This document shows positions 43,880 to 50,456 of a stretch of 64,000 nt of DNA, piece after piece. Under the pieces are notes generated by a model. That model was not told where the DNA came from. It did no database searches and worked only from the letters and a program-made list of their open reading frames with translations. Positions within the stretch are counted from its first letter, which is position 1. The number at the start of each line of letters is the position of its first letter. This DNA is from Acidilutibacter cellobiosedens (GTDB lineage Bacteria; Bacillota; Clostridia; Tissierellales; Acidilutibacteraceae), in assembly GCF_004103715.1 (NCBI RefSeq), contig NZ_CP035282.1, positions 2,656,673-2,720,672 on the forward strand, in the 5' to 3' direction. A program made the translations under genes and the position numbers.

Positions 43880-45259
43880 CTAAAATCTTCTTCTCATAGA
43901 TGAAGAAGCTATATTCATTTCCTCTCTATATTTTGCAACAGTCCTTCTCGAAATACTGATACCCTTTTCCTTAAGCAAATTAGATATTTGTTGATCACTC
44001 AACGGTTTTTTATGATTTTCATTTTCTATTAAATCCTTAAGGGTTGATTTAATGCTAATCGCTGAAACATCTCCCTTTTCTCCGCTTACACCACTGGAAA
44101 AGAAATATTTTAATTCAAACACTCCCCTGGGGGTTTGCATATACTTTCCGTTAGTTGCTCTGCTTACGGTAGACTCATGAACTCCGATATCATCAGCAAC
44201 TTCTTTTAAGGTAAGAGGTTTAAGAAATTTCTCTCCCTTTTCAAAAAAGTCCAACTGAAATTTCAGTATAGATTTTACAACTCTGTATATTGTCGTTCTA
44301 CGCTGTTCAATACTTTTTATAACCCACAAAGCGGAATTCAATTTTGAATTTAAAAATTGTGATATCTGAGGATCGTTAGTTTTAGATACCAATTCCTTAT
44401 AAAAGCTATTAATATTCAATCTGGGTCCTGTTACATCATTTAAAACTACAATATATTCACCATCCACATGCTGAAGAGTAATATCAGGAACGATATATCT
44501 AATATTATCCGAACTTCCGCCGAACCCTCTGCCGGGTTTTGGTTCCAAACTTCTGATAACATCACATATTTTTTGAACTTCCTTAATATCAATGTTTAAC
44601 TCCTTTGATATTTTCATCATTCTGTTATTGGCGATATCCTCAAGATAGTTTTCAACGACAGTAAATACATTTGGGTCCTCAATCTTTCTATCTATAAGCT
44701 GAATAATTAAACACTCTTTTAAATCCCTTGCCCCTACTCCTACCGGGTCAAAGGTTTGAATTTGAAATAAAACATTTTCCGCATACTCAAAAGAAACACC
44801 CAATTCTTCAGCAATGGAATCTAATGAAACGGCAAGGTATCCGTTTTCATCTACGCTCTCAATTATAAACTGTCCTACATTTTTTTCCTTCTCGTCCATA
44901 TTAGTTAAATTCAGCTGAGATAACAAATATTCCTTTAAAGATGGAGAATAACTAATAAAATTTTCATAGGTAACTTCTTTAATATTTTTATCTCTTCGCT
45001 CCGTATAACTTATGTCGTCATATTTACCAAGAAATTCTTTCCAATCAATATCCTCAGCTTCTTTCCCAAGTTCTTCAATATTCTCATGTTCAATAGAATT
45101 ATTTGCTACTTCCAGCATGGGATTTGATTCCATCTGGATTTCCAAATATTCATTTAATTCTAAACTATTATATTGAAGCAGTTGAATAGCCTGTCTCAAC
45201 TCAGGCGTCATTACCAATTTTTGAGCTTGTTCAAGAGTTAAATCATAACCTAATCTCAT
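43880..45259 (-). CDS. rpoN: RNA polymerase sigma-54 factor
   Basis: This sigma factor of about 459 aa recognises -24/-12 promoters and needs enhancer-binding activators. Region I is Gln/Leu-rich (MRLGYDLTLEQAQKLVMTPELRQAIQLLQ). The core-binding region follows, then the helix-turn-helix (LKEVADDIGVHESTVSRAT), and the RpoN box reads SRRTVAKYREEMNI near the C-terminus. The ATG at 45259 has a GGGGGAGAG site; the frame opens 24 nt earlier at a TTG without one. It is upstream of cggR on the same strand but separated by its own terminator. Confidence 0.95.
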   Translation of the reverse strand: MRLGYDLTLEQAQKLVMTPELRQAIQLLQYNSLELNEYLEIQMESNPMLEVANNSIEHENIEELGKEAEDIDWKEFLGKYDDISYTERRDKNIKEVTYENFISYSPSLKEYLLSQLNLTNMDEKEKNVGQFIIESVDENGYLAVSLDSIAEELGVSFEYAENVLFQIQTFDPVGVGARDLKECLIIQLIDRKIEDPNVFTVVENYLEDIANNRMMKISKELNIDIKEVQKICDVIRSLEPKPGRGFGGSSDNIRYIVPDITLQHVDGEYIVVLNDVTGPRLNINSFYKELVSKTNDPQISQFLNSKLNSALWVIKSIEQRRTTIYRVVKSILKFQLDFFEKGEKFLKPLTLKEVADDIGVHESTVSRATNGKYMQTPRGVFELKYFFSSGVSGEKGDVSAISIKSTLKDLIENENHKKPLSDQQISNLLKEKGISISRRTVAKYREEMNIASSSMRRRF

Positions 45260-45321
45260 AAAGCTCTCTCCCCCATCAATCAATTAATAATCTTTATTTA
45301 AAATATTATTTCTTTAATTAT

Positions 45322-45565: not shown

Positions 45566-45605
45566 AAGTAATTTCCTTTACTTAAAAATATCTTTATGAT
45601 ATAAT
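45566..45605 (+). promoter_or_regulatory. Promoter and candidate operator of signalling module 1
   Basis: TTTACT (45577-45582), 17-nt spacer, TATAAT (45600-45605). An inverted repeat AAGTAA-N6-TTACTT (45566-45583) overlaps the -35. The same arrangement is found at 47523-47562 before module 2. Confidence 0.7.
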
Positions 45606-45638
45606 TAATTAAAATAAATTTTACTGGGGATTGATATT

Positions 45639-46964
45639 ATGAATGAGAGTATAAGTCTGTCTGTCGGACAAAACTTAAAGAGGATTCGAAAGGAATTGAA
45701 TTTAAAACAGTATGCCATCACCGGAGGCAAAATTACCCGAAATTTAATAAGTCTTATAGAAAACGACAAAACTCCATTGTATGAAGATAACGCAAAGATA
45801 ATCGCGGAAACTATGAATATCGCATTGGAAGAAAAAAAATTGGATATCATCATTGAGCCGGAAGACATCTTAAATCCAGCTCGATACGACGCCAAAAAAA
45901 GAGCTGACGAATACATAGAAGAGTTAAAAAACTTTTTAGATGAAAAAAATTTCGAAATTAAAGAGGAAAAGCTGGAAGAAATCGAAAGATTTTTAAATCA
46001 TTGGAACTTAAGCGATAAAAAAGCTACCATATATGAACTGATAGGCGATTTATGTTATTACAAACATGATTTGGACAACGAATATAAGTATTTGACAAGG
46101 GCTTTGGATTATTCCTTTATATATCCTCAAAAAAAAGATGTTTATAAAATAGTATTAAAGTTAGTAGCCAACTATATTAATACCGGAAAATATGAAGAAG
46201 CTATCAGATTAGGAAACTTCGGCCTTGGGAGCCAAAAAGAGATGACAGACCGTTCAAAGGGGTTATTCTATTACAATATAGGACTTGCTTACAGCCATTT
46301 AAAGAGGCCTGATAATTGTTTAGAACAAGTAAATATGGCAAAAAAATATATTAAGAATGTAAATGATAATGTAGCAATAAGAATAATGATATTGGAAGGC
46401 AATTCCTTTACAAAAAAGAAAGAATACGATAAAGCTTTAGAAGCATATGCTCATGCTTTAGAAATGTTAAGAGATCATCAAAATGACTATGAGGGGTTGT
46501 ATTTAGTATATATAAATTCAATAGAGGTATTTATAAATCAAAAAAATCATTCTAAAGTTACCGAATATTTAGATCTTATCATGAATGTTTTCCCTCATTT
46601 AACAAAAATGCCACACTATATAACAAATGCTTACTTAGATGTCTCTGATGCATATTCTTTTTTAAAAAAATATGATTCTTGTGAGAAGTATTTAAAAATT
46701 GCATTAAAATCAGCTAAAAACAAAAATGAAAAAGAACTACAGTCAAGAATTTTGTTGAAGATGTTCGACTTTTATACTGAAAGAGATGAAGATGAAAAAG
46801 TTGATTATGTCATGAGGGAATTAACAGAATATATATCAAATATTCCTAAAGACGACAAAACCGCGTTATCAGCGAAGTTAATTTTATATTATCTTAAAGA
46901 TAAAGATGAAGAAAAGGCTAAGAAATTAGCTCAAAAAATAATAAATAAGGGAGGAAATGTATAA
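45639..46964 (+). CDS. HTH-TPR regulator (RRNPP/NprR-like), module 1
   Basis: This 441-aa cytoplasmic protein has an N-terminal XRE-type helix-turn-helix (about 8-60: SVGQNLKRIRKELNLKQYAI, RNLISLIENDKTPLYEDNA). About 300 residues of TPR-like helical pairs follow (TGKYEEAIRLGNFGL, YYNIGLAYSHLKR, KEYDKALEAYAHALEML). Size and layout match the NprR/PlcR group, in which a re-imported short peptide binds the TPR domain and changes DNA binding. Its last codons (NKGGNV) contain the GGGAGG ribosome site of the peptide gene, whose ATG shares a base with the TAA stop. It is therefore translationally coupled to its presumed ligand. Its targets are unknown; the AAGTAA-N6-TTACTT repeats are a likely site. 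Confidence 0.75.
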   Translation: MNESISLSVGQNLKRIRKELNLKQYAITGGKITRNLISLIENDKTPLYEDNAKIIAETMNIALEEKKLDIIIEPEDILNPARYDAKKRADEYIEELKNFLDEKNFEIKEEKLEEIERFLNHWNLSDKKATIYELIGDLCYYKHDLDNEYKYLTRALDYSFIYPQKKDVYKIVLKLVANYINTGKYEEAIRLGNFGLGSQKEMTDRSKGLFYYNIGLAYSHLKRPDNCLEQVNMAKKYIKNVNDNVAIRIMILEGNSFTKKKEYDKALEAYAHALEMLRDHQNDYEGLYLVYINSIEVFINQKNHSKVTEYLDLIMNVFPHLTKMPHYITNAYLDVSDAYSFLKKYDSCEKYLKIALKSAKNKNEKELQSRILLKMFDFYTERDEDEKVDYVMRELTEYISNIPKDDKTALSAKLILYYLKDKDEEKAKKLAQKIINKGGNV

Positions 46965-47317
46965 TGAAAGATCATAAAAGGTCATTCATAAAATTACTGG
47001 TATTATTTATGATATTAATGAGTATATGGATCATGAGCCCATTTAGCACAGGTCCAGACCCCATTAGAGCTGAAGGAACCTTCTCTGACACAGGTCCAGA
47101 TCCTATCAGAGCTGAAGTGAACCTCTTCACCGTAGGTCCAGATCCTATCAGAGCTGAAGTGAACTTCTTCACCGTGGGTCCAGATCCTATCAGAGCTGAA
47201 GTGAACTTCTTCACCGTAGGCCCAGACCCTATCAGAGCTGAAGTGAACTTCTTCACCGTAGGCCCAGACCCTATCAGAGCTGAAGGTATTATGAGCAATT
47301 ATACCATAAATATTTAG
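46964..47317 (+). CDS. Secreted repeat-peptide precursor with six GPDPIRAE units (candidate pheromone), module 1
   Basis: This 117-aa protein starts MKDHKRSFIKLLVLFMILMS, a basic-plus-hydrophobic signal sequence. Six copies of GPDPIRAE follow, at 42-nt spacing from 47051 to 47261; the last four units read GPDPIRAE with TV before and V/G after, joined by VNFFTV or VNLFTV. A short tail GIMSNYTINI ends it. A secreted precursor that releases many copies of one 7-9-residue peptide is a known design for peptide signals. PDP-I resembles the KPDI core of the NprX signal, though this is only an analogy. Reading frame, coupling to an HTH-TPR regulator and the signal sequence all support export and signalling. 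The exact mature peptide ends are not known. Confidence 0.7.
   Translation: MKDHKRSFIKLLVLFMILMSIWIMSPFSTGPDPIRAEGTFSDTGPDPIRAEVNLFTVGPDPIRAEVNFFTVGPDPIRAEVNFFTVGPDPIRAEVNFFTVGPDPIRAEGIMSNYTINI
47051..47284 (+). repeat. Six 42-bp tandem coding repeats
   Basis: Units start at 47051, 47093, 47135, 47177, 47219 and 47261. Units 3-5 are nearly identical in DNA and differ mainly at silent positions such as GGT/GGC and GAT/GAC. This indicates recent unit duplication within the peptide gene. Confidence 0.95.
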
Positions 47318-47374
47318 GCCTCTCTATCCCATTTAAAATTTTTATAATTAATTTACAGACTTTATTCTACAAAA

Positions 47375-47401
47375 GAGTTTCTAATTTAAAATTAGAAACT
47401 C
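47375..47401 (+). terminator. Hairpin downstream of module 1
   Basis: GAGTTTCTAATTT and AATTAGAAACTC form a near-perfect palindrome followed by TCTTTATAT. The T run is weak, so termination may be partial. The rest of the 47318-47522 gap holds no gene. Confidence 0.55.
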
Positions 47402-47522
47402 TCTTTATATCCAATAGGAATGTTCTATTTACTTTAATATACCGATGTTTTGATAAAGGTTTTTTTACATAGATACATTTTCCTATTACATATAAAATTT
47501 TATATAATTTTTTATATATTTT

Positions 47523-47562
47523 AAGTAAATCTCTTTACTTGTATATCTAATTATGATATAAT
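47523..47562 (+). promoter_or_regulatory. Promoter and candidate operator of signalling module 2
   Basis: TTTACT (47534-47539), 17-nt spacer and TATAAT (47557-47562), with AAGTAA-N6-TTACTT (47523-47540) over the -35. Spacer ends TATGA in both modules (T-TATGATATAAT shared). Confidence 0.7.
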
Positions 47563-47592
47563 AAAATAAAAACTGATAAAGGGACTGATATC

Positions 47593-48900
47593 ATGGTTAA
47601 AGATGAGAATATTACTGTTGGTCAAAATTTAAAAAGAATCAGAAAAGAATTGGAATTAAAGCAATATTCAATAACTGGCGGAAAGATTACAAGAAATCTA
47701 ATAAGCCTCATAGAAAATGATAAAACCCCATTATATGAAGATAATGCAAAGATAATTGCAGAAAATATGAATAGCAATGCAATGGAAAAAAATATGAATA
47801 TATATATCGAGCCGGAGGATATATTAGATCCAAAGCGATATGATGCTAAAAAAGATGCAGATGTATATATCGAAGGATTGAGGAAACGTTTGGAGGAAAA
47901 CCATCTTGAAATCAGACCTGAAGAACTGCAAAAAGTAGAACTGTTCTTAAATAATTGGAATCTAAGCGATAAGAAGATAATAATATATGAACTCTGGGCA
48001 GATATGTATTATAAGGCTCGCGATTTTGAAAATGAGCATATGTATTTGACAAAGGCTTGGGAATACTCCTTCATGTACCCGAAGAGAAAAGGAAACTACA
48101 GAATAATATCAAATCTAATATCCAATTGTATCAACAGCGGAAAATATGAAGAAGCAATCAGACTCGGAAATCTCGGGCTTTTAAGCCAAAAAAATTTGAC
48201 GGACAATGATAAAAAGGTATTCCATTACAATAATGCCCTTGCCTACAGCTATTTAAATAAATTTGATGACGGATTAAGAGAATTAGCAATTGCAAAAAAA
48301 TATAATTTGAATGCAAACGACAAATTGGAACGAAAGATATTGGTTTCGGAAGGATTTTGTTATGTAAAAAAAGGAGAATATGGCAAGGCTTTAAATGCTT
48401 ATAATCTTGCATTGAGAATGTTAAACACTAACAAAAATTATGATGAATTATGCTTAATCTACACAAATATGATGGAGGTTTTCGTAAAAAGTAAAGACAG
48501 CAAAAAAATTTCCGAATATTTAAATCTTGTTATTAATTTATTGCATGATTTAGAAGATAACTCTTCTTATATAATAAAAATTTATTTAGAAATAGCTAAT
48601 GCATATCTTTTCTTAAAAAAATACAATTCCTCGGAAGAATATTTATTAAAGGCTCTTAAAGTAACACGAATTAACGATGAGAAAGATTTGCATTCAAAGA
48701 TTCTATTAAAATTATTTAATTTATATATTGAGAAAAATGAGATCAAAAAAATTGATGATCTTATGGAAGAATTTGTTCAGGAAGTTTCAAACATTCAAAA
48801 AGACGACAGGTTTGTTTTATTACTAAACTTGATTTTATATAACAAGGAAGAAAAAAATAAGGATTTTGTTCAAAAAATACTTAATAAAGGAGGAAAATAA
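47593..48900 (+). CDS. HTH-TPR regulator (RRNPP/NprR-like), module 2
   Basis: This 435-aa paralogue of 45639-46964 has a nearly identical helix-turn-helix (VGQNLKRIRKELELKQY, then RNLISLIENDKTPLYEDNA) and a diverged TPR part (SGKYEEAIRLGNLGL, YYNNALAYSYL-like, KGEYGKALNAYNLALRML). Conserved DNA-reading residues with a divergent ligand domain suggest both regulators see the same DNA site but different peptides. The gene ends in AATAAAGGAGGAAAATAA, so its final NKGGK codons supply the ribosome site of the next small gene. Its function is inferred from architecture. Confidence 0.75.
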   Translation: MVKDENITVGQNLKRIRKELELKQYSITGGKITRNLISLIENDKTPLYEDNAKIIAENMNSNAMEKNMNIYIEPEDILDPKRYDAKKDADVYIEGLRKRLEENHLEIRPEELQKVELFLNNWNLSDKKIIIYELWADMYYKARDFENEHMYLTKAWEYSFMYPKRKGNYRIISNLISNCINSGKYEEAIRLGNLGLLSQKNLTDNDKKVFHYNNALAYSYLNKFDDGLRELAIAKKYNLNANDKLERKILVSEGFCYVKKGEYGKALNAYNLALRMLNTNKNYDELCLIYTNMMEVFVKSKDSKKISEYLNLVINLLHDLEDNSSYIIKIYLEIANAYLFLKKYNSSEEYLLKALKVTRINDEKDLHSKILLKLFNLYIEKNEIKKIDDLMEEFVQEVSNIQKDDRFVLLLNLILYNKEEKNKDFVQKILNKGGK

Positions 48901-48902
48901 AA

Positions 48903-49067
48903 ATGAAAAAATGCAGGAAATTATTTGCAGTATTATTCTTATCACTTATACTATCAATAGGCTTAAACATAGTAAGTCCTTCAACAATACTTCCAGATCC
49001 GGAAAGAATAAACAGTATAATTATAGTAAATCCCTTAGGAATACTCCCGGATCCGGAAAGAATTTAA
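48903..49067 (+). CDS. Secreted repeat-peptide precursor with two ILPDPERI units (candidate pheromone), module 2
   Basis: This 54-aa gene lies 2 nt after the regulator stop and begins at ATG 48903 behind AAAGGAGG. The product starts MKKCRKLFAVLFLSLILSIG (signal sequence), then has STILPDPERINS, a linker IIIVNPLG, and a second ILPDPERI that is the exact C-terminus. PDPxR is shared with the GPDPIRAE units of module 1. A second copy ending at the C-terminus would need only one cleavage. It is too small for many gene callers, but the context is strong. Confidence 0.7.
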   Translation: MKKCRKLFAVLFLSLILSIGLNIVSPSTILPDPERINSIIIVNPLGILPDPERI

Positions 49068-49130: not shown

Positions 49131-49172
49131 ATCAAAGTACCTGTCCCCCTTTTTGAGGACAGGTACTTTGAT
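49131..49172. terminator. REP-like palindrome acting as terminator between convergent genes
   Basis: ATCAAAGTACCTGTCC and GGACAGGTACTTTGAT form a perfect 16-bp stem around CCCTTTTTGA. It lies between module 2 (plus) and the flavodiiron gene (minus), where a bidirectional terminator is needed. The CAAAGTACCTGTCCCC form resembles REP sequences mobilised by RAYT transposases, none of which is in the window. Confidence 0.65.
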
Positions 49173-49181
49173 TTTCACCCA

Positions 49182-50384
49182 CTATTTCATCGAATTGCAG
49201 ATGGACTCTGCCAATTTATCGAATTCCCCTTCCTGCTCTTTTTTCATAGATGATTTAATTTCAAGGGGCGTACCGACAATTTCCATGTTCTTCATTCCTT
49301 CAAGGAGTTCCTCCATTATTTTTACAGCTCTGTTAGCCCATGTACCATTGCCGATTAACGAAACTTTTCTCTTTTGAAAATTCAATCTCGCCATTTCACG
49401 GATAAGAAATTCCATTCCATAATATAATCCCATATTATAAGTGGGAGAACCAAAAACAATGTTGCTGTATTTCCATGCATCCGCAATAATGTAGGAAGGA
49501 TGAGTTTTGGAAACATCATATATTCTCATATCTTTAACTCCCCTTTCCGACAATTTATTGGCAATAATACTTACGGCATTTTCCGTGTGCCCGTACATAG
49601 ATGCATAAACTAATATAACTCCCTGTTTTTCCGGTTCGTAGTTACTCCATTTATTGTATTTATCTAAAATATAATTTAGATTTTTCCTCCATATGGGTCC
49701 GTGAAGAGAGCAAATCATGTTTATATCGGTATCGGAAAGTTTTTTTAATATATTCTGTACTTGAGGCCCATATTTTCCTACAATATTTGTATAATATCGC
49801 CTTGCTTCCGAAAGATAAACAGGCTTAAAATCAATCTCATCACTAAATATGTTGCCGTTTAAAGCTCCAAATGTACCAAAGGCATCGGCGGAAAATAAAA
49901 TTTTCTTCTTTGTTTCATAGGTAAACATAACTTCAGGCCAATGAACCATAGGCGCAAAATAAAACTTCAAAGTATGTTCTCCCAAACATATTTCGTCCTG
50001 TTCCTTTACTTCATAATAATCATTTTTTTTATCAAAATTAAAGAGCTGTTCTATAAATTGAAAAGTTTTTGAATTACCGACAATCTTTACCTTTGGATAT
50101 CGGAATACAATATCTTGAATATTGGCACAATGATCCGGCTCCATATGATTAATAACCAGATAATCCAATGTCCTTCCATTTAACACATGTTCAACATTTT
50201 CCAAATACAAACTGCTGATAGAAGAATCTGCAGTATCTAAAAGAGCTGTTTTTTTATCCAAAATTAAATAGGAATTATAAGAAATACCGTTAGGCAATGG
50301 AAACATATTCTCAAAACGCTCCAATCTCCTATCGCTGCCTCCTACCCAAAAAATTTGAGGACTAACTTCCTGAACACAATACAT
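49182..50384 (-). CDS. Flavodiiron protein (FprA-type)
   Basis: This protein of about 400 aa has a metallo-beta-lactamase-like diiron domain (NHMEPDHC with the HxExD ligands, HWPEVMFTYE, SLHGPIWR) and a C-terminal flavodoxin domain (VYASMYGHTENA, GSPTYNMGLYYGMEFL). Members reduce O2 or NO to protect anaerobes. ATG 50384 (MYCVQEVSPQIFWVGG) is chosen because AGGAGTATT precedes it; the frame opens slightly earlier. Downstream of it on the other strand is the peptide-signalling locus. Confidence 0.92.
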   Translation of the reverse strand: MYCVQEVSPQIFWVGGSDRRLERFENMFPLPNGISYNSYLILDKKTALLDTADSSISSLYLENVEHVLNGRTLDYLVINHMEPDHCANIQDIVFRYPKVKIVGNSKTFQFIEQLFNFDKKNDYYEVKEQDEICLGEHTLKFYFAPMVHWPEVMFTYETKKKILFSADAFGTFGALNGNIFSDEIDFKPVYLSEARRYYTNIVGKYGPQVQNILKKLSDTDINMICSLHGPIWRKNLNYILDKYNKWSNYEPEKQGVILVYASMYGHTENAVSIIANKLSERGVKDMRIYDVSKTHPSYIIADAWKYSNIVFGSPTYNMGLYYGMEFLIREMARLNFQKRKVSLIGNGTWANRAVKIMEELLEGMKNMEIVGTPLEIKSSMKKEQEGEFDKLAESICNSMK

Positions 50385-50456
50385 AATACTCCTGACCTCC
50401 CACATAAAATTATTTCTATTATTATTTGAATTTCCTTTTCATATATTCTTCAATAT

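Follow-up and report, generated by a model that had tools for sequence, protein, structure and literature searches.

Two adjacent genes for proteins combining a helix-turn-helix (HTH) and a tetratricopeptide repeat (TPR) domain, each with a small gene encoding repeated short peptides directly behind it, raise the question of whether they form receptor–pheromone pairs and, if so, whether the two signals run to two outputs or to one. The genes occupy positions 45566–49067 of a 64,000-nucleotide (nt) stretch of the Acidilutibacter cellobiosedens genome (contig NZ_CP035282.1), hereafter the window. An original prediction, made from the DNA letters, had described four genes here, and all four lie where it placed them: regulator 1 (441 amino acids (aa), 45639–46964), propeptide 1 (117 aa, 46964–47317), regulator 2 (435 aa, 47593–48900), which is the sister of regulator 1, and propeptide 2 (54 aa, 48903–49067), all on the plus strand. 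Each HTH-TPR gene is thus adjoined by a small open reading frame (ORF) with a signal-like N-terminus, made up of a start rich in lysine and arginine and a hydrophobic stretch, after which propeptide 1 carries six copies of GPDPIRAE and propeptide 2 two copies of ILPDPERI. We consider it highly probable that the two modules are quorum-sensing pairs of the RRNPPA type, consisting of a receptor and its pheromone, and their near-identical HTHs and matching operator-like palindromes, neither of which the original prediction had noted, make a single common output more plausible than two separate systems.

Recurrence of the Receptor–Peptide Pair

If the small ORFs encode pheromones, they should accompany related regulators elsewhere. 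A profile built from 18 regulators was searched against 249 genomes of the order Tissierellales (expectation value (E) ≤ 1e-30; up to seven candidates scored per genome; genome collections holding one genome per species) and returned at least 47 related regulators in 35 of the 249 genomes, the window's own included. A small signal-like ORF, defined by a charged start and a hydrophobic stretch and starting between −70 and +250 nt from the regulator stop, follows 42 of the 47, and in 33 of the 47 it contains a P-x-P core. Other gene ends, taken as a control, gave 20/120 signal-like ORFs and 0/120 with P-x-P, and dinucleotide-preserving shuffles gave 199/1840 and 6/1840, respectively. These counts keep a doubtful ORF in G058 (+98), a peptide in G052 that ends at the contig end, and G061, whose P-x-P match falls in a spacer; a recount with one row dropped for its short downstream sequence yields 41/46 and 33/46. 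An additional P-H-P-W ORF lies at +310 in G016, beyond the range used. Among named loci, a single-protein query found no relatives, and an alignment query found 25; in 17 of these, judged by eye, the regulator is followed by a small ORF of the signal-like kind. One named contig, from Schnuerera, a genus of Tissierellales, carries the same regulator. The RRNPP-like character claimed in the original prediction is therefore supported in the order by a candidate peptide gene behind 42 of 47 regulators, a gene that is absent in distant Clostridium relatives.

This recurrence bears on an alternative in which the repeated peptides are secreted for another role, bacteriocin-like or at the surface, while the HTH-TPR proteins do no more than regulate their synthesis. 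Precursors with repeats are also known outside quorum sensing, and binding of the peptides by the receptors is a prediction. Against this stand the small peptide gene directly behind most of the 47 regulators, the shortest propeptide among the relatives (37 aa, with a single short P-x-P core), the TPR superhelix resembling those of NprR, Rap, and PlcR, and the QsrB system of Clostridium acetobutylicum, described with the same layout and an active heptapeptide containing proline and tryptophan (PMC7376267). We regard such a role as improbable and retain the receptor–pheromone pairing.

Selection on the Repeated Cores

The repeats themselves provide a second line of evidence. The six GPDPIRAE and two ILPDPERI copies reported in the original prediction were confirmed as exact at the amino acid level. 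In propeptide 1, the copies recur with a fixed 14-aa period, forming an array at 47051–47284 of six 24-nt cores with a 42-nt period (starts at 47051, 47093, 47135, 47177, 47219, and 47261, plus strand); in propeptide 2, they lie at 48987–49010 and 49041–49064 (plus strand), the second forming the C-terminus. Across the six GPDPIRAE cores, four columns vary, all synonymously, whereas the five 18-nt spacers have 11 variable columns, mostly nonsynonymous. Counted pairwise, the cores differ by 27 synonymous and 0 nonsynonymous changes and the spacers by ~12 and ~32, respectively, although the copies share kinship and these differences are non-independent events. Similarly, the two ILPDPERI copies are separated by three synonymous and no nonsynonymous substitutions. 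Because the cores change only synonymously and the spacers do not, the octapeptides are held by selection while the underlying DNA drifts. Together with the recurrence of the arrangement in relatives, the synonymous-only core changes indicate that the repeats exceed chance. No orphan copies of propeptide 1 were found elsewhere in its own genome at E ≤ 10, and a tblastn search with propeptide 1 against plasmid records gave two matches, at E 0.2 and 0.001, in unrelated organisms.

The same pattern speaks to a further possibility, namely that each module is a toxin–antitoxin pair of a small hydrophobic toxin and an HTH repressor, with incidental repeats. Such a pair would fit a short frame containing a single hydrophobic segment next to an HTH gene, and a palindrome over the promoter, but the synonymous-only core changes suggest that the functional portion is the peptide that follows the hydrophobic stretch, and the relatives G008 and G024 keep the peptide gene without an HTH in the open frame. 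We give this explanation next to no weight, and the cores are best read as candidate pheromones.

Fold and Kinship of the Receptors

Regulators 1 and 2 are 54% identical. TPR families score above the Pfam cut-off in both, and HTH_19 and HTH_3 fall below theirs; no NprR-named model was found among their Pfam and NCBIfam matches. Both structural models (mean predicted local distance difference test scores of 88.2 for regulator 1, from AlphaFold2, and 88.5 for regulator 2) begin with a helical, HTH-like bundle (residues 9–65), followed by helical pairs to the C-terminus; in regulator 1, the HTH spans residues ~8–61 and the TPR helices residues ~109–436. With an optional HTH and a C-terminal TPR region in 250–500 aa as the description of an RRNPPA receptor, both regulators have the expected architecture. 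A fold comparison in VIA-align, which covered regulator 1 only and matched mostly residues 75–441, the HTH being barely covered, gave Z scores of 21.8 for apo NprR (root-mean-square deviation 6.2, 329 residues aligned), 21.2 for RapI, 20.5 for NprR–NprX, and 18.5 for PlcR–PapR. A profile search matched RapH (4.4e-10) and NprR (1.5e-8), with eukaryotic LGN equally strong (2.7e-10), and tblastn aligned RstA with regulator 1 at 23.7% identity (E 2e-6). Two asparagines in the TPR helices, N213 and N293, show no variation across the 18 sequences aligned, and in a set of 25 their conservation is at least 90%; by analogy, both would occupy position 6 of helix A in TPR numbering, comparable to the asparagine of the Hop peptide clamp.

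The genome, a single contig of 3.74 Mb, holds ten oligopeptide-binding proteins (SBP_bac_5) above the cut-off and one Spo0A, and regulator 1 matches only the two module loci in it at E ≤ 0.001. A search for a mobile-element signal found no match among phages and two distant matches among plasmid records, one of them RstA; a mobile-element origin of the modules was rejected on these results.

A Probable Shared Operator and a Conserved HTH

Whether the two receptors serve one output depends on what they bind. An exact inverted repeat, AAGTAA-N6-TTACTT, precedes each regulator: AAGTAATTTCCTTTACTT at 45566–45583 in module 1, the first base of which is also the first of the locus as originally delimited, and AAGTAAATCTCTTTACTT at 47523–47540 in module 2. 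The start codon follows the palindrome core, GTAA-N6-TTAC, by 71 nt in module 1 and by 68 nt in module 2. Both repeats overlap a promoter-like TTTACT-17-TATAAT with a TG before the −10, found by a consensus scan at 45577–45605 and 47534–47562 (plus strand); because the core lies 18 nt before TATAAT, the right arm of the putative operator overlaps the −35 hexamer in both modules. Across the sites collected, a loose TAnnnT search placed a −10-like match at 18 nt from the operator in 12 of 25 cases and at 16 to 21 nt in the rest. The occurrence of the operator follows the type of HTH: of 30 regulators with the HTH stretch [IV]TRNLIS, 25 have GTAA-N6-TTAC in the 220 nt upstream, compared to 1 of 17 with another HTH or none.

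The HTHs of the window's regulators (residues 8–61) are identical at 49 of 54 positions (91%), compared to 187 of 374 elsewhere. The proportions of synonymous (pS) and nonsynonymous (pN) differences are 0.85 and 0.046 in the HTH and 0.66 and 0.27 in the rest, respectively. Because the synonymous sites of the HTH are saturated, purifying selection, not recent conversion, keeps the HTHs alike, and gene conversion was rejected as the source of the likeness on the same value of pS. Regulators with an intact HTH from 19 chosen genomes allowed a comparison between genomes: in 31 pairs with 45–52% identity in the rest of the protein, HTH identity averages 67% and reaches 83% at most. Paralogue pairs in other genomes have HTHs 81–96% identical at 62–77% identity in the rest, an excess that is modest beside between-genome pairs of similar divergence. 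The operators of four pairs of within-genome paralogues differ at 4, 1, 3, and 1 of 18 bases, while between genomes (23 sites, with G016, G030, and G023 left out) the mean is 4.8 of 18 over 249 pairs, 41% of which differ by four bases or fewer.

Provided that the modules are receptor–pheromone pairs, it is likely that both receptors read the same operator. Since the HTHs and operators are nearly the same and divergence is confined to the peptides and TPR regions, the two pheromones probably converge on one operator. An alternative inside the receptor–pheromone reading is that the modules are two independent RRNPPA systems, each with its own peptide and gene set, the likeness of HTH and operator being a residue of duplication. 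The two separate units, each with its own promoter-like and terminator-like sites, and the divergence of the TPR parts and peptides favor independence; however, a saturated pS of 0.85 beside a pN of 0.046 indicates a likeness kept by selection and not left over, none of the 31 between-genome pairs at comparable divergence reaches the HTH identity seen here, and the same palindrome occupies the same place in both promoters. Independence seems unlikely, yet it has a better claim than either alternative considered above.

Operator-like sites were also counted across the genome. The exact AAGTAA-N6-TTACTT occurs at three sites, against two in the control: the two module promoters and one site inside a coding frame. 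The variant GTAAA-N4-TTTAC occurs at four, against 16 in the control (module 2, two positions inside predicted coding frames, and one site, L038, of ambiguous context), and the operator plus −10 with one mismatch at 17, against 17. These sites yielded no additional target and were rejected as evidence for a regulon.

Weighing the Evidence

Several points weigh against the reading of the modules as pheromone systems with a common operator. The evidence for it all comes from sequence and predicted structure. Counting of the P-x-P core followed its recognition in 29 relatives and 25 named loci, which overlap the 47 regulators, and signal-like character was judged by a simple hydropathy rule, which also accepts 20 of 120 ordinary gene ends. 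Five of the 47 regulators have no signal-like ORF in the range used, and at least one of the 42 ORFs counted, a 30-aa frame at +241 behind an interrupted regulator (G247f), is spurious and was kept in the count. No such ORF was seen in 8 of the 25 named loci, namely L051 and the seven most distant, L057–L063, mostly from Clostridium (the sequence of L063 ends soon after the regulator gene); for this reason, the regulator–peptide pairing characterizes this branch and does not extend to every HTH-TPR relative. The fold does not single out RRNPPA proteins either, since mammalian LGN TPR domains top the ranking (Z 26.0, over 21.8 for NprR), and the predicted fold alone is no proof of membership. 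GTAA-N6-TTAC is not rare upstream of ordinary genes (11/122), and 20 between-genome pairs with 60–80% identity in the rest of the protein have HTHs 82% identical on average and up to 96%. Finally, no regulon was found, extra operator-like sites in the genome being no commoner than in the control.

Outside the order, a class-wide sample (E ≤ 1e-20, up to four candidates scored per genome) gave related regulators in at least 2 of 390 additional genomes. In one of the two, G603, from another order of the same class, three tandem HTH-TPR paralogues (L125, 2900–7880) have no signal-like P-x-P ORF between them, which counts against a universal P-x-P code.

Taken together, the co-occurrence in relatives, the TPR fold, the operator, and the selection on the peptide cores support the dual, RRNPP-like signalling of the original prediction.

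A Proposed Circuit

The two paralogous modules would have arisen through duplication within the lineage. Sec would export their propeptides, and processing would yield several copies of a short P-x-P pheromone, approximately GPDPIRAE in module 1 and ILPDPERI in module 2, which would return to the cell through an oligopeptide permease. Bound in the TPR superhelix of its own receptor, each peptide would alter binding of the HTH at the palindrome, and each receptor would govern its own module and its neighbor's. The position of the palindrome on the −35 suggests that the DNA-bound form of the receptor represses both modules. Control of sporulation or of entry into the stationary phase is a guess from the presence of Spo0A in the genome and the analogy with QsrB of C. 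acetobutylicum.

More tentatively, the duplicates may form a two-input, one-operator circuit, in which selection holds the DNA-binding half and the operator fixed and lets peptide and TPR half drift apart, so that two pheromones are added or opposed at the same promoters. If so, each signal would be dosed by the number of copies per propeptide (six versus two), and slippage of the 42-nt tandem repeat could shift the copy number between strains. The same route would have been taken several times in the order, where six-, three-, and eight-copy propeptides and, in at least four genomes, sister sets of paralogues occur, making Tissierellales a natural test bed for the splitting of pheromone specificity. 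A readable P-x-P code, a conserved operator, and recurrent duplications specific to single lineages would allow tests of how a pair splits while one output is kept, and the same family would also allow tests of what multi-copy propeptides are for.

Transcription Units and Neighboring Genes

Each module looks like one transcription unit, with an operator over the −35, an extended −10, a receptor, a propeptide, and a terminator. The ATG of propeptide 1 overlaps the stop of regulator 1. A terminator-like stem-loop follows module 1 (47374–47402, plus strand, from a terminator scan), and another, with a symmetric stem and scored on the minus strand, lies between module 2 and the opposing gene (49131–49172). 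Both scans are weak on their own, with 31 promoter-like sites against a mean of 25.5 in shuffles, and three terminator-like sites in the region against a mean of 1.5.

The neighbors are on the minus strand: to the left, a gene at 43880–45283 whose start resembles the sigma-54 factor RpoN, and to the right, a flavodiiron-like gene at 49182–50405. The locus had been called the only plus-strand stretch of genes in the window, which holds for the two regulators, though not strictly, because a third and doubtful plus-strand ORF exists among the 44 non-overlapping ORFs of at least 120 aa (3/44 on the plus strand). This 138-aa ORF (2268–2684), in a window otherwise almost wholly minus, may not be a gene.

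Peptide Code and Copy Number Across the Order

The cores found in relatives fall into several types: P-x-P-I-R-D/E (e.g., VPPEPIRD, INPEPIRE), P-x-P-E-R (e.g., AKPDPERV, IDPEPERI), P-x-P-W (e.g., DDPEPWSV, VVPEPWSV), and others such as HTPDPVMP and IDPTPMTC. In a midpoint-rooted TPR tree, with the fragments G247f and G025c left out, the window's two regulators are sisters (support 96/87). Seven of the eight P-x-P-W regulators fall in an 11-row group across the midpoint root, and the eighth (G037) is basal on the window's side. Because the active QspB heptapeptide of C. acetobutylicum also has a proline and a tryptophan (PMC7376267), a Pro-Trp type was probably ancestral to P-x-P-I-R and P-x-P-E-R.

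Internal repeats occur in 10 of 42 propeptides. G037 has eight copies, the window's propeptides six and two, and those of G038 three and two; two copies are present in each of two G247 paralogues and in G061 and G245, and the truncated G052 peptide shows at least two. G244a has a related but unequal pair of repeats, outside the scripted count of ten. Repeated propeptides fall in several separate branches of the tree, so repeats and the growth of copy number apparently originated repeatedly. The most copies observed belong to Thermohalobacter berrensis (L055, 4306–4659; the same as L076 and taken as G037), whose 117-aa propeptide has eight VVPEP(W/R)S-type repeats, seven with W and the first with R.

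Five regulators (G243, G244a, G245, G061, and G244b; L078–L081 and L112) form one family with a changed, apparently decayed HTH. G244a and G245 are 63% identical in the HTH and 83% in the rest, the reverse of the usual pattern; the exact operator was found upstream of 0/5, and the peptides of 4/5 have an RP core. In G008 and G024 (L083 and L084, minus strand, 361 and 367 aa), the regulators have no HTH in the open frame and the peptide genes, with IDPPPLKN and LDPPPLKN, are kept, perhaps a Rap-like state reached independently. Interrupted or truncated extra regulators lie beside intact ones in G247 (contig 36, L117) and G025 (contig 57, L113), which suggests a turnover of duplicates.

Comparison with Known Systems

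RRNPPA signalling has been studied in depth in Bacilli and in a handful of Clostridium species. Both ingredients of this locus have been published, repeated RRNPPA propeptides in Bacilli and RRNPP systems in Clostridium. The multi-copy design, which the original prediction did not recognize from any described system, is in fact documented in Bacilli with up to six (PMC9765709) and eight copies (PMC11343458). All 17 of the atypically long NprR-type propeptides reported there are repeated (PMC9765709), and pheromones of both copies are produced and active in two Rap systems (PMC11343458). NprR–NprX and the other Bacilli systems resemble the window in having an HTH and TPR receptor (NprR), several identical or near-identical pheromones, conserved cores, and variable spacers (PMC9765709, PMC11343458). 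The genera with RRNPPA genes in the published survey are, with one exception, Bacilli (PMC9765709, PMC11343458), whereas the window belongs to Tissierellales and uses a different peptide code, P-x-P-I-R and P-D-P-E-R.

The closest clostridial parallels are Qsr/Qsp of C. acetobutylicum and QssR–QssP of C. saccharoperbutylacetonicum, where, as in the window, an HTH-TPR gene is followed by a short ORF with a positive N-terminus, a hydrophobic stretch, and a C-terminal peptide (PMC7376267, PMC7206700). Qsr/Qsp also share with the window's family several paralogues per genome and a conserved proline in the peptides (PMC7376267, PMC7206700). The Qsp precursors are 39–50 aa long with conserved Leu, Pro, and Trp, and repeats are not mentioned in the passages cited (PMC7376267, PMC7206700), unlike the repeated peptides of the window. 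By the published description of Qsp, with Leu, Pro, and Trp near the C-terminus (PMC7376267), GPDPIRAE and ILPDPERI, which have no Trp, are set apart. RstA of Clostridioides difficile is likewise a clostridial RRNPP protein, autorepressing its expression via an inverted repeat that covers the promoter, but it is described as an orphan receptor without an adjacent peptide gene (PMC6414698).

RRNPP_detector finds receptor–propeptide pairs by the same logic as here, and the systems that its report places beside biosynthetic clusters include a single case each from Tissierellaceae and Peptoniphilaceae (n = 1 each; PMC10075063). One of its 21 novel candidate subfamilies may be the window's family. 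Its strict limit for propeptides is 10–100 aa (PMC10075063), and such a limit in detection misses the members with the most repeats, the 117-aa propeptides found in the window and in G037. A full-text search for ‘Tissierell’ with ‘RRNPP’ returned PMC10075063 only, and the literature searched held no described Tissierellales RRNPPA family, P-x-P code, operator, or duplicates with a fixed HTH and diverging TPR, although the supplements of PMC10075063 may hold the family. The modules thus apparently represent a Tissierellales branch of RRNPPA, with a P-x-P code, repeated propeptides, and shared-operator duplicates.

The nearest precedent for a common operator comes from Streptococcus pyogenes, where the paralogous receptors Rgg2 and Rgg3 are reported to bind one conserved DNA motif at a common set of promoters, among them the promoters of the peptide genes (PMC5007282). 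Rgg proteins belong to the five-TPR clan, with export described as via PptAB or by an unknown route (PMC12700828). In the window, a repeated, Sec-like propeptide of its own follows each receptor, and shared binding, reported for Rgg, is here a prediction. In A. cellobiosedens, the two peptides would probably converge on a single operator, as in Rgg2/Rgg3.

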